Shown here: positions 27,522 to 31,878 of the stretch, in pieces | Layout: every line of letters begins with the position of its first letter | Position numbering within the stretch: position 1 is the stretch's first letter | Assembly: GCA_026416535.1 (NCBI GenBank) | Contig: JAOAFA010000013.1 | Location: 1 to 37,533 of the forward strand | From: Deltaproteobacteria bacterium | GTDB lineage: Bacteria; Myxococcota; SpSt-1050 | Reading direction: 5' to 3' | Length of the DNA stretch: 37,533 nucleotides | The notes under the pieces: model-generated | Told to the model about the DNA's origin: nothing | The model's database searches: none | The model's input: only the letters and a program-made list of their open reading frames with translations | Program-made: the position numbers and the translations under genes

Positions 27522-28286
27522 TTATCCGTTACTTGTTTCACTCTTGAAGCATTTACAGATTAATGAAACAATAATCCCTGAAAAGGCATAAAATGCAACA
27601 ATAGTATATCCGGTCGGGAGATCCAGATAATATGAAAAGAGTATTGCTATGATGTTTATTAATATCCCAAGTATCCATGCCCCGATTAATTTTATTGAGA
27701 AACTATGTGTAAAAAAGGACATAATGTAGGCTGGTGCAACAAGTATAGAGAATACAACTAATACACCTGCAAGGTTGACGGAGCTCGTAACGGTAATTGC
27801 AAACGAAGTAAAAAACAGAACCTCTTTTATCGTTCCTTCTACTTTTTCTACTACAAAGAATAAAAATAGACCTATAGTTGCGTATAATACAGATACTTTA
27901 ATCAGTTCACCCTTTGTAATAAACAATATATCTGATGCTGTGAGCTTCTGAACCTCTTCTGTCCCGTGGGGATTCTTTGAGAGGACAATGATAGAAAGGC
28001 TTATTCCGATTGCATATATAAGACCAATGAATGCCTCGTGATTTATTCTCTTCTTTGAGGTAAGTGCAATCAGAAATGCGCCTATAAGTGCAAATGAGAG
28101 TGAGACGGGATAGATAAAACTTCCATCAAAGATAAGAAAGGCGATGGCGGTTCCGAGAGCCGCCATCTGTCCTATTGCAAGGTCTGTAAATATGATCCCG
28201 CGTCTAATTATATGAATTCCATAATAAGAATGAATTCCGAGTAATACTGTTGCAAAGATAAAACTTGTAAGCAGAATATCTATCAT
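27522..28286 (-). CDS. Metal ABC transporter permease (ZnuB/MntB family)
   Basis: The 254-aa protein is a polytopic ABC-3 permease with about seven or eight membrane segments. The family pattern 'RRGIIFTDLAIGQMAALGTA' near residues 28-47 and the C-terminal half 'NLAGVLVVFSILVAPAYIMS' are typical of zinc/manganese permeases. Its ATG overlaps the ZnuA-like stop (ATGA). It is the last gene of the cassette, and no ABC ATPase gene follows or precedes. The 200 bp beyond it are non-coding. The ATPase must be supplied in trans if the system works. Confidence 0.93.
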   Translation of the reverse strand: MIDILLTSFIFATVLLGIHSYYGIHIIRRGIIFTDLAIGQMAALGTAIAFLIFDGSFIYPVSLSFALIGAFLIALTSKKRINHEAFIGLIYAIGISLSIIVLSKNPHGTEEVQKLTASDILFITKGELIKVSVLYATIGLFLFFVVEKVEGTIKEVLFFTSFAITVTSSVNLAGVLVVFSILVAPAYIMSFFTHSFSIKLIGAWILGILINIIAILFSYYLDLPTGYTIVAFYAFSGIIVSLICKCFKSETSNG

Positions 28287-29185
28287 TCTGTAAGTCTCCT
28301 CACAATAAAGTCATAGAGTGAAAAGATATCTTTTACTTCACTCAGACTATTTACATCGTGTGGAAGAATAATGTAAGGGATCTTTGTCTCCTCGGAGAGT
28401 TTCTTTACAGACTTAATTTCGTGATAGTCATCACCGATTATCTTTAGGATTTTTTGTCCCTTTGACTTTTCTATTATGGACTCAATATGCTTTGCCGTTG
28501 GTGGTATACCAGGTTTTGGTTCTATCTCAGCAAAGATTGAACAATTGGCATCCATTGCCACATAATTAAACATTCTGTGATACTGAATAAGTTTGCAACC
28601 CTTTATTTTACTGAGTCTCTCATCCCACTCTTTCTTCTTCTCCTCAAAGCGTCTGATAAAATCAGTAAAATTCGCCTCAAAAAATTCCTGTTTGTCAGTT
28701 CTGACTCTGATTAGACCATTCTTAATTCCTTCTGCTATTCTGGGAAGATTCTTATAACTGAGGTAGTAGTGTGGGTTCCCCTCGGGGTGGACATCGCCCT
28801 CGGACCTGCTCACATTATACGGTTTATTTATAAGTTCTACGGTTTTAGACAGGTCAATAAAATACTCTGAGCCTGGGTTAATTTTTGGATTATTTGCCTG
28901 TTTTAAGAGCGGTGGCAAAAAGCCTATTTCGAGAGATGCCCCGTTGATAAACAGTATGTCAGCCTGTCTGAGCCTCCCAATGAGGGATGGTTTTGGGACA
29001 ACAAAATGTGGGTCTTCTGTTCCCTTTGCGAGGGTAGTGATAATTACTACATCTCTGCCGATCTCCCTAACTATTGATTCTATGTAAGGGTATGTGACAA
29101 CTACCTTGATTTTGTCTTCAGCAAGTATAGTACTTGTAATAAAAATTCCTAATAAAACTCCTAAGGTAAAAAATGTTTTATTCAT
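28283..29185 (-). CDS. Periplasmic metal-binding protein (ZnuA/TroA cluster 9)
   Basis: The 300-aa protein has a cleavable signal peptide (about 1-22, ending LA-E). Cluster A-I ligand positions are visible: H60 in 'EDPHFVVPKPS', H139 in 'GNPHYYLS' and H203 in 'IQYHRMFNY', with an acidic or amide residue expected near 'HDVNS' at about 276-280. Most ZnuA proteins carry a long His-rich loop; here only a short 'DVHPEG' is left. It delivers Zn or Mn to the permease encoded downstream. GAGGAGG precedes the ATG. It follows the outer-membrane barrel gene by 15 nt. Confidence 0.92.
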   Translation of the reverse strand: MNKTFFTLGVLLGIFITSTILAEDKIKVVVTYPYIESIVREIGRDVVIITTLAKGTEDPHFVVPKPSLIGRLRQADILFINGASLEIGFLPPLLKQANNPKINPGSEYFIDLSKTVELINKPYNVSRSEGDVHPEGNPHYYLSYKNLPRIAEGIKNGLIRVRTDKQEFFEANFTDFIRRFEEKKKEWDERLSKIKGCKLIQYHRMFNYVAMDANCSIFAEIEPKPGIPPTAKHIESIIEKSKGQKILKIIGDDYHEIKSVKKLSEETKIPYIILPHDVNSLSEVKDIFSLYDFIVRRLTE

Positions 29186-29200
29186 AAATTCACCTCCTCA

Positions 29201-30496
29201 TTAAAAAGAGTGTGCCCCGTGAGCCCCCACAGCAAAGTTCAGATTCAATATAAATTCCTGAATGGGCAACATCCTCTCTTCAAAATACTTGGTGTGATCA
29301 TAATTGTACTGAAATCTTATTTTTGAAAACTCAGTAAAATTATAATCAATCATGTATGAAATTTTATACAACCTTTCTTCACTGTGTTCGTGTTCGGGGT
29401 GCTGACCATCAAGTTCGACATGAGGCTCAATCAGATAATCAAGTCTCAAACCTGTTCTCCATCTCTTGTCAAACTTAAATAGTGCCTGGACATAGAGACC
29501 TGAATTGGTTTTGTGTATTTTTCTTTTAATGGCAAAATCATCAGTTATTTCTTCTGTCTCATTATCATCTGCAATGTATATCGTCCCGTCAATGATTCTG
29601 CTCAAGTATTCGCTCTCAACTGACAGATATCTGTGGGCATCAATAATGTATTTGTAAGTCAGGTCAAAGCCGAAGACAATTGTCCCAGGGGCATTGATGG
29701 CATTCTCCTGCTTGTGTTCGGATATTTCTTCATTTTGTTTATGTGTGTGACCCGATTGTGAGAGATTTGAATGTCCATAGAGAACCGATGAACCCAGAAG
29801 AAAGATGTGTTCACCAAAATCAAATGAGGTCTTCAGATATCCTGTGAAGAGTGATGGCACAGAGGCATCTTTTATCTCATGTCCAAGGAATGTAAATCCT
29901 TTGGCATTAAATGATATGGGTTCGCCACTATTGCCCTGAAAAATCTCTCCTCCCAGCTGGAGAAAGAAATCAAGCGGAAATGTATATGTGAGCCTTAGAC
30001 CGACATCTGATATCCCTTCGCTTCCCAATATTGCATCATAAATAACAGGCGAATCGTAAAAATCCCAGTTGTGTATGTGTTTTGAATTATGTCTTCCTAT
30101 ACCGCTCTTAAAAAGCCCTGTCCTTGCCCCGAATCCGTAGGGGAGAAACCTTGTGTCTGCATAGACTTCTTCAATCTCTATTCCGTGCCCCGGTGCAAGG
30201 GTTGTGATTCCAGTAAAGTCAAAGTAGACATCTATTGGTGCTGAGAAGGCGAGTTCGAGATAATTGAAATTTATTCCTCTGGCTTTGCTTATGTGAGAGT
30301 GAGGGTGGTGGTGTAAAAACTCGGGTATTTCTAATTTCTCTCTTGACTCATCCCTGATATCGCTACTATTGAATGCAAAATCAGCTATGATTGACAAATC
30401 CGGATTAAATTTATTCTGTAGAAAAGGGTTTTCAGATATCTGTGCTAAAAGTAGGTTTGGAATTGACATTATTAATAGTATTACTAATATCTTCAT
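29201..30496 (-). CDS. His-rich outer-membrane beta-barrel of the metal cassette
   Basis: The 431-aa protein has a signal peptide (about 1-18) and alternating beta-strand pattern throughout, ending in Phe ('GAHGAHSF'), the barrel-assembly signature. Histidines cluster in predicted loops: 'HHHPHSH' (62-68), 'RHNSKHIHNW', 'GHTHKQNEEISEHK' and 'DGQHPEHEHSE'. There is no TonB box or plug domain. It would be a porin-like metal entry channel or a metal-binding surface protein. AAGGAGG precedes ATG. Its position between the small Cys/His protein and the ZnuA-like protein supports a role in metal uptake. The transport role is inference. Confidence 0.82.
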   Translation of the reverse strand: MKILVILLIMSIPNLLLAQISENPFLQNKFNPDLSIIADFAFNSSDIRDESREKLEIPEFLHHHPHSHISKARGINFNYLELAFSAPIDVYFDFTGITTLAPGHGIEIEEVYADTRFLPYGFGARTGLFKSGIGRHNSKHIHNWDFYDSPVIYDAILGSEGISDVGLRLTYTFPLDFFLQLGGEIFQGNSGEPISFNAKGFTFLGHEIKDASVPSLFTGYLKTSFDFGEHIFLLGSSVLYGHSNLSQSGHTHKQNEEISEHKQENAINAPGTIVFGFDLTYKYIIDAHRYLSVESEYLSRIIDGTIYIADDNETEEITDDFAIKRKIHKTNSGLYVQALFKFDKRWRTGLRLDYLIEPHVELDGQHPEHEHSEERLYKISYMIDYNFTEFSKIRFQYNYDHTKYFEERMLPIQEFILNLNFAVGAHGAHSF

Positions 30497-30554
30497 ATTT
30501 GGACCTCCTTAGGTTGAGGTGCATAGAGGTTAGGTAGTAGTAAATTTTAAGAGC

Positions 30555-30830
30555 TTATCCTTTGGGAGGTCCACGAATGTGGTTTGATTGGTATTGTAAA
30601 GTTACTACCCTTTCAGTAGGGGGAGAGACCTTCCATTTTTCCTCTTTATTAGTTAGGAGAATTTTGTTAAGGTCATCTAATTTGTCTGCGCTGTTTTGAT
30701 ATGTATGAAATTGGCATATCGGACAATTATCTCTCTGGTTGTAGTTGTGTTCTGGGTGGATAAAGTCAAATATGTTAAGGTGTATTAAGATTGGTAAGGC
30801 AACAAGTATTTTAATGAATTTATTAAACAT
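30555..30830 (-). CDS. Small membrane/periplasmic Cys-His protein of the metal cassette
   Basis: It has 91 aa from ATG 30830. One hydrophobic segment (about 4-19) is a signal peptide or anchor, followed by 'FIHPEHNYNQRDNCPICQFH', which offers CxxC plus several His. The C-terminus 'NHIRGPPKG' resembles the 'RAPP' ending of small periplasmic proteins often found in metal operons. It is likely to bind or sense Zn or Cu; no enzyme motif is seen. An upstream in-frame TTG at 30866 lies inside the -35 box and is rejected as start. It is the first gene of the cassette. No Shine-Dalgarno site precedes the ATG. Confidence 0.7.
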   Translation of the reverse strand: MFNKFIKILVALPILIHLNIFDFIHPEHNYNQRDNCPICQFHTYQNSADKLDDLNKILLTNKEEKWKVSPPTERVVTLQYQSNHIRGPPKG

Positions 30831-30837
30831 CGTTTTA

Positions 30838-30866
30838 ACTTTAAATACAAATAGATTTTGTGTCAA
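30838..30866 (-). promoter_or_regulatory. Promoter of the metal-uptake cassette
   Basis: Minus strand: consensus TTGACA (30866-30861), 17-bp spacer, TAAAGT (30843-30838). The -10 ends 7 nt before ATG 30830, so the mRNA is predicted to begin at or next to the start codon. Confidence 0.65.
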
Positions 30867-31125: not shown

Positions 31126-31878
31126 ATGTTTGATTTTAAGGGAAAGAACGTACTTGTGACAGGTGGTTCGAGGGGCATTGGTAGGGAGATCTGCAAGCAG
31201 TTTGCCAAATACGGTGCAAAGGTCATAGTATCAAGTCGCAAGCTTGAAGCCTGTGAAAAGGTTGTCGAGGAGATAGAGAGAGAGGGTGGAGAGGCCATAG
31301 CGGTGGCAGCTAATATGGGCAAAATGGATGAGGTAATGAATCTGGCAAATAGATCTCTTGAAGAGTGCGGTTATATTGATGTCTTGGTAAATAATGCTGC
31401 TACAAATCCAATCTTCGGACCAATTTTGAATACCGAAGAGAAGGCATGGGATAAGATTATGGATGTAAACTTAAAGGGTCCTTTCTTTTTATCATTGAGG
31501 ATTGCTCAAAAGATGATAGAAGGGAAGGGTGGCTCTATTATTAACATAGCCTCTACGGCGGGTTTAAGATCCTGGCCAGGACTTGGGGTGTATGGTATAT
31601 CCAAGGGTGCTATTGTACAGATGACTCGTCAGATGGCACGTGAGTGGGCTGGTGGGAATGTAAGAGTTAACTGTGTTGCGCCTGGACTTATTGATACGGA
31701 TTTTTCAAAGGTTCTAATAGTTAATCAGGCACTTAGAGAAGAGGCACTAAAGACTGTTTCAATGAATAGACATGGTGTAGTGTCTGAGATAGCAGGTTTG
31801 GTCCTATTTCTTGCCTCGGATGCAGCTTCATATATAACAGGTCAGATTATTGTTGCTGATGGTGGGGGTATGTGCTGA
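31126..31878 (+). CDS. SDR-family oxidoreductase (FabG-like)
   Basis: The 250-aa classical short-chain dehydrogenase has cofactor motif 'TGGSRGIGREI' (about 12-22), 'NNAA' (89-92), catalytic N115, S143, Y156 and K160 ('YGISKGAI'), and the ending 'ITGQIIVADGGG'. 'SSRK' at about 36-39 after beta-2 suggests NADPH preference. It acts on a ketone, alcohol or sugar; substrate cannot be fixed. It stands alone between the divergent metal cassette and the convergent sugar ABC operon (3-nt gap to malG stop). It has its own promoter and a strong AAGGAGG. A role in sugar or polyol oxidation would fit the neighbour but is not shown. Confidence 0.94.
   Translation: MFDFKGKNVLVTGGSRGIGREICKQFAKYGAKVIVSSRKLEACEKVVEEIEREGGEAIAVAANMGKMDEVMNLANRSLEECGYIDVLVNNAATNPIFGPILNTEEKAWDKIMDVNLKGPFFLSLRIAQKMIEGKGGSIINIASTAGLRSWPGLGVYGISKGAIVQMTRQMAREWAGGNVRVNCVAPGLIDTDFSKVLIVNQALREEALKTVSMNRHGVVSEIAGLVLFLASDAASYITGQIIVADGGGMC

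Follow-up and report, generated by a model that had tools for sequence, protein, structure and literature searches.

An ABC-3 permease clade without an ATPase and its candidate role in binding-protein-dependent metal uptake

How can a permease of the ZnuB type serve in an operon that carries no ATPase? ABC (ATP-binding cassette) importers are defined by ATP-driven transport, and the operon that raises this question lies on contig JAOAFA010000013.1 of a deltaproteobacterium of the Myxococcota. This contig of 37,533 nucleotides, which we analyzed in full and refer to as the window, is the entire contig C74 of the window genome G000, a draft in 134 contigs (2.96 Mb, 97.95% complete). The initial annotation had described here a metal cassette with a His-rich outer-membrane barrel and no ATPase, packed as one operon. 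That description held: four open reading frames (ORFs) occupy 27522-30830 on the minus strand, exactly where they were first placed. They are transcribed in the order small Cys/His ORF, barrel, ZnuA-like protein, ZnuB-like permease, with 58 nt between the small gene and the barrel, 15 nt between the barrel and znuA, and a 4-nt overlap (-4) of znuA and znuB, and no ATPase gene was found among the window ORFs between or beside them. We consider it somewhat probable that this operon is an ATP-independent, binding-protein-dependent uptake pathway for zinc or a closely related divalent metal.

The ATPase could be encoded at a distance, and a search of the genome for a lone ZnuC-type ATPase had been suggested. 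We addressed this with a genome-wide search using a profile (A1) built from 17 ZnuC proteins of relatives. True ZnuC proteins score 295-351 bits in genomes that have ZnuC, and separate full operons in two further genomes, G034 and G041, give 213-223 bits. The best scores were 166 bits in G000, 165 bits in its same-genus sister genome G001, and ~125 bits in G043, G054 and family f18. No ZnuC was found by this search among the ~21 ABC ATPase genes of G000, and we rejected a lone ZnuC elsewhere in the genome because the profile tops out at the 166-bit protein, which lies directly behind a BtuC-type permease and is the BtuD of that BtuC operon. This BtuD-like ATPase was itself rejected as a partner for ZnuB because its own BtuC adjoins it. 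The only other metal-type ATPase of G000 is of the energy-coupling factor (ECF) type and has a His-rich tail. Its orthologue in G001 is located downstream of NikM, NikQ-like and NikK-like proteins in a NikKLMQO-like operon, and it was rejected as an orphan partner because it is encoded there behind NikM and a NikQ-like protein that carries an AMRSRG motif. A second full znuABC, which the initial annotation had named in its refuting case, is likewise absent from G000, which contains one ZnuA (E <= 0.001) and one ABC-3 permease, the latter detected as two segments of one gene. As judged from sequence, the ATPase, as ZnuC, is absent from the genome as well as from the operon.

Is this arrangement peculiar to one genome? 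In a survey of 195 genomes of the phylum, most operons consist of barrel-znuA followed by znuC and a classical znuB whose product is only distantly similar to the window ZnuB (E 1e-4 to 1e-9). Permeases of the window type (E down to 1e-44) were found in 23 of the 195 genomes, belonging to nine families, as 26 genes, and the order barrel-znuA-znuB is kept in 20 of these 23; in three small genomes the permease is located elsewhere. A generic ATPase lies ~4 kb away in G131, and G034, G040 and G041 have an additional full system elsewhere in the genome. G001 has all four genes in identical order, with its ZnuB split over two contig ends, and its contig, deposited as DYEF01000105.1, was the only match in a genome-contig scan with ZnuB. 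Outside the phylum, tblastn of a plasmid collection retrieved Sulfurovum mangrovi NZ_CP087125.1 (Campylobacterota) and Vibrio campbellii NZ_CP050465.1; further searches of this collection gave no additional records, and sampling outside the phylum thus amounts to these two. Both encode a barrel ending in GAHGAHAF, a ZnuA and a ZnuB with no ATPase behind; the set is annotated in Sulfurovum, which also has the small Cys/His gene, and unannotated but readable in V. campbellii. No ATPase gene is present in any operon of this permease clade, in the 23 phylum genomes or in the two outside records. The gene order whose conservation the initial annotation had proposed to examine is therefore found elsewhere, and the same motorless set recurs in at least three phyla.

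In a maximum-likelihood tree, all window-type permeases fall on one side (support 99/99) and the classical ZnuBs that stand beside a ZnuC on the other, so that every ATPase-less operon belongs to this one clade; support for the clade was 100/100 once Sulfurovum and Vibrio were added, in a tree built without E. coli ZnuB. The window ZnuB is sister to that of Sulfurovum, with which it is 45% identical, and the Vibrio ZnuB sits on a long branch whose exact position is unsure. Two motorless ZnuB genes stand in tandem behind one ZnuA in G018 (L177:8285-10333) and in G183 (L170:5129-8430), and their products could possibly form a heterodimer. A comparison of G000 with G001 shows synonymous sites close to saturation (proportion of synonymous differences, pS, 0.72-0.77), and nonsynonymous differences amount to 6.6% in ZnuB, 14% in ZnuA, 17.5% in the barrel and 37% in the small protein. 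Of the four operon proteins, ZnuB (90% identity, proportion of nonsynonymous differences 0.066, pS 0.75) shows the highest conservation. These values indicate that the operon genes are in use and that ZnuB, under strong purifying selection, is their most constrained part.

The permease itself (27522..28286, minus strand, 254 aa, PF00950 2.6e-17) has lost its ATPase-coupling helix, a point absent from the initial annotation. In type II importers the coupling helix lies in a cytoplasmic loop, and in this loop the phylum's classical ZnuBs have the motif F-D-P-E-x-A-x-x-x-G, which aligns with SFDELLAKAMG of PsaC and SPDLAFVDG of E. coli ZnuB. A gap of ~15 residues, common to G000, G001 and Sulfurovum, removes the whole FDPE.A..G motif; in the window the deletion site is at approximately 27831..27860 (minus strand), where a short FFVVEKVEGTIKEV turn stands in place of these residues. 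The coupling helices of PsaBC have been described as the link between permease and ATPase (PMC11779740). Elsewhere in the clade, family f18 lacks 6 residues of this region, Vibrio lacks a similar stretch, and the region is degenerate in f15, f21 and G136. The motif was kept in all classical ZnuBs (16/16) and lost in all 10 unextended clade members scored. It was also kept in 13 of 13 clade members whose C terminus is extended by 158-221 residues (Fisher p 9e-7 versus the unextended members, in a test that ignores kinship and excludes the split G001 and G183b, whose extension is ambiguous).

Some of these extensions contain HEAT repeats, namely those of the ZnuB relatives at L179:4870-6351 (G191), L161:6386-7837 (G131) and L174:7167-8714 (G189), and G191, G131 and G189 thus combine an ABC-3 permease and a HEAT domain in single proteins. 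The extension may sit where the ATPase once sat; it would then hold the coupling helix in the ATPase's former place, and unextended members would have let the helix decay. In an AlphaFold2 model of the window ZnuB (predicted local distance difference test, pLDDT, 90), a short turn of residues 145-151 joins the two helices. The overall fold is still PsaC-like (Foldseek, PsaC 7kyp, template-modeling (TM) score 0.77), and the solved E. coli ZnuB 9oko was matched by profile at 1e-19. The BtuC of G000 retains its own motif, LGEDIAKTSG.

We tentatively propose, with slightly less than even confidence, that this permease clade is permanently ATPase-free and now functions as an ATP-independent, binding-protein-dependent metal carrier in at least three phyla, by either of two structural routes: the helix has been deleted or has decayed, or it is kept together with a C-terminal cytosolic extension. 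In the window operon, the barrel would let metal through the outer membrane past conserved His/Glu residues, and the ZnuA-like protein would capture it in the periplasm, dock on the permease, a ZnuB-derived dimer, and pass the ion over. The ion would cross passively or by membrane potential and be retained inside by cytosolic binding, so that the former ABC permease would act as a binding-protein-gated facilitator or secondary carrier. The identity of the metal, the direction of transport, its independence of ATP and its energy source are what we infer here. Solitary ECF S components could serve, by analogy, as a precedent for motorless uptake: they too are the membrane part of an ATP-driven importer, the part specific for the substrate, and uptake without ATPase units has been shown for BioY and two cobalt S components (PMC3246461). 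They differ from the window system in their unrelated fold, which the PsaC/BtuC-like window ZnuB does not share, in having no binding protein, and in being normally partnered or reported to have low affinity, whereas the window permease belongs to a whole clade without an ATPase.

Several points weigh against this proposal. ABC permeases without their ATPase usually leak or are inactive, and the 13 extended members that keep the coupling-helix motif could still meet an ATPase. We found no convincing Zur box or other zinc-responsive operator for the operon. G000, which has one Fur-family regulator, also encodes a ZIP transporter, which gives it a possible route for zinc besides the cassette. 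Finally, G136 carries another ABC-3 permease, paired with an ATPase of its own (L160:3431-4916), ~3 kb from its motorless operon. These two G136 systems also form a natural comparison.

The principal alternative, which we consider unlikely, is that the permease is a true ABC importer borrowing an ATPase encoded elsewhere, in the way that MsmK serves several sugar importers. Candidates for lending are not scarce, as G000 has ~21 ABC ATPase genes and several of these genomes encode FecE/BtuD-like ATPases scoring 160-182 bits, and the 13 extended members retain the motif that such an ATPase would contact. However, the window permease lacks the coupling helix on which an ATPase would dock, and both metal/B12-type ATPases of G000 have partners of their own (BtuC for one, and NikM and a NikQ-like protein beside the G001 orthologue of the other). 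Moreover, no ATPase of the ZnuC or FecE type exceeds ~127 bits in G043, G054 or family f18, which makes one shared ATPase partner across the clade unlikely. These points weaken borrowing for the window permease; the extended members may still borrow an ATPase.

An improbable second alternative is that the cassette senses, buffers or scavenges periplasmic metal, or signals via the C-terminal domain of its relatives, with no inward transport. The HEAT-repeat extensions of those relatives would fit such a role, as would the small protein with a metal motif in the operon and, in G006, G028, G029 and G190, the barrel-ZnuA pairs that lack a neighbouring ZnuB. Invariance of D35, Q40, the membrane helices and the pore-side region, together with a complete PsaC-like fold, suggests a working path instead. 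The window ZnuB, moreover, has no cytosolic domain of its own.

There is also a small chance that the same mechanism carries manganese, iron or another metal. The ABC-3 and ZnuA families carry Zn, Mn and Fe, and the NCBIfam matches of the window ZnuA (28283..29185, minus strand, 300 aa, a periplasmic metal-binding protein of cluster A-I, PF01297 3.9e-40) include Mn-binding proteins, none above cut-off. The best of these matches, however, is the zinc protein AztC, and in the alignment the ligand-type residues are the His of DPH, GNPH and QYH and the Asp of LPHDV. Mn-specific binding proteins have a Glu where the third His stands in the Zn type, and the set of three His plus Asp would favour zinc over manganese. 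A decayed operon or an assembly artefact, with znuC lost or missed from a genome that is a 134-contig draft and 97.95% complete, is highly improbable and is refuted by the recurrence of the motorless set, since the operon is internal to its contig and under purifying selection, and the sister genome, more than 20 independent genomes and the Sulfurovum and Vibrio records are all concordant.

What might the barrel (29201..30496, minus strand, 431 aa) contribute to the proposed uptake pathway? Homologues lie directly upstream of znuA in 136 of the 195 phylum genomes. Its AlphaFold2 model (pLDDT 82, predicted TM score 0.82) is porin-like: 16 strands are predicted, and the third extracellular loop (L3) is long. 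Foldseek matched it to general porins and the phosphate porins OprP/OprO (TM 0.56-0.59), which share the predicted 16-strand barrel and the L3-like loop; they differ in carrying an arginine ladder where the window barrel has conserved His/Glu, and they show no sequence match to it. Indeed, no sequence match was found in the Protein Data Bank (PDB) or Pfam. The barrel is also unlike TonB-dependent zinc receptors of the ZnuD kind, having no plug, ~16 rather than 22 strands and only a sub-threshold barrel match (0.25). Across 48 homologues, E110, H140 and H426 are invariant (48/48), followed by E109 (45/48), N137 (44/48) and H142 (43/48), and E110, H140, H142 and H426 are present in barrels with or without ZnuC. 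Because H140 and H142 sit in predicted loop L3, the loop that narrows the pore in classical porins, a metal-lined constriction at this site is plausible in the model. The barrel ends in GAHGAHSF, and its homologues end in GAHGAHxF/Y or GPHKHxxY.

His makes up 24 of the 431 barrel residues (5.6%, versus 1.5% in the other ORFs of the window), with clusters in predicted loops L1 (HHHPHSH), L5 and L7. The content is 4.4% in G001 versus 1.2-4.1% in the other 46 homologues, and the loop clusters are genus-specific, shared only by the closest relatives. The initial annotation had read these clusters, together with a ZnuA said to have lost its His-rich loop, as a shift of metal capture from ZnuA to the barrel. 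The window ZnuA does lack a long His-rich loop, but "lost" is misleading, as the absence is general in the family. The idea of compensation fails because relatives whose operon has ZnuC lack the loop as well; a short ZnuA is independent of ATPase loss, the barrel accompanies znuCB operons equally, and the His-rich loops are confined to the window and its sister. Barrel-ZnuA pairs with neither ZnuB nor ZnuC adjacent occur at L109 (G029), L105 (G028), L112 (G190) and L097 (G006); at L109, two lipoprotein-like genes occupy the place of ZnuB and ZnuC, one of them with a His/Asp-rich start.

The small Cys/His protein (30558..30830, minus strand, 91 aa from the ATG at 30830) is encoded by the first gene of the operon and has an N-terminal hydrophobic segment, a HPEHNYNQRDNCPICQFH motif and a C-terminal GPP. 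As for the barrel, Pfam/NCBIfam-type profile searches matched it to no curated family. Its family evolves fast and occupies this position in most relatives. A small ORF that combines a hydrophobic N-terminal stretch, H...C..[HC] and (PK.S)PP at the C terminus lies upstream of the barrel at 17/22 loci without an ATPase and 18/26 with one. The background in the same loci is 45 of 2829 ORFs; a few of the matches may be chance.

How does the operon relate to known systems? With the cluster A-I importers (E. coli ZnuABC, PsaBCA, AztABC) it shares the PF01297 binding protein, the PF00950 permease and the PsaC-like fold; it differs in lacking an ATPase within the operon and a ZnuC anywhere in the genome, in its deleted coupling helix, and in the added barrel and small Cys/His gene. 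The barrel-znuA-znuC-znuB operons of the phylum have the same barrel family, ZnuA family and small gene, but retain ZnuC and a classical ZnuB with its coupling helix. The TRAP/TTT secondary transporters, which are organic-acid carriers, would share the logic of a periplasmic receptor with an ATP-independent carrier, without homology. The initial annotation knew of no described system with this layout, and as far as our literature searches reach there is none: we found no description of znuAB without znuC in open-access papers, although a subscription paper may exist. The parts come from known families; what the open-access literature searched does not describe is an importer permanently free of its ATPase, a permease stripped of its coupling helix, and a conserved set of barrel, ZnuA and ZnuB. 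If the proposal is true, a widespread natural clade would demonstrate that the motor is dispensable for an ABC permease, and the clade would provide a natural experiment on the purpose of the coupling helix. Annotation would also change, as such genes currently bear the name "metal ABC transporter permease", and the conserved outer-membrane barrel and small Cys/His family would be defined as likely metal-uptake parts across the phylum.

Upstream of the operon, a sigma-70-like promoter, TTGACA-17-TAAAGT (30838..30866, minus strand, a consensus match only), ends 8 nt ahead of the ATG at 30830, and given this distance the mRNA may be leaderless. G001 likewise has a TTGACA a few tens of bases ahead of the GTG start of its operon. 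The window operon is flanked downstream by a YlqD-like gene and upstream by a divergent gene (31126-31878, plus strand) that looks like an SDR dehydrogenase by sequence. The G001 contig DYEF01000105.1 (locus L089) is labelled Bdellovibrio sp., which may be wrong; the genomes closest to it in the collection are members of a phylum with 9-13 Mb genomes that resembles Myxococcota. In the NikKLMQO-like ECF operon (L193:5233-9344 in G001 and L190:1026-1838 in G000), a PF02361 search for CbiQ was negative, a false negative given the NikQ-like protein of G001, and the CbiQ-like component of this operon thus escapes that profile. The ATPase of the same operon ends in the His-rich tail HRHRHKEIDHTHYHKH.

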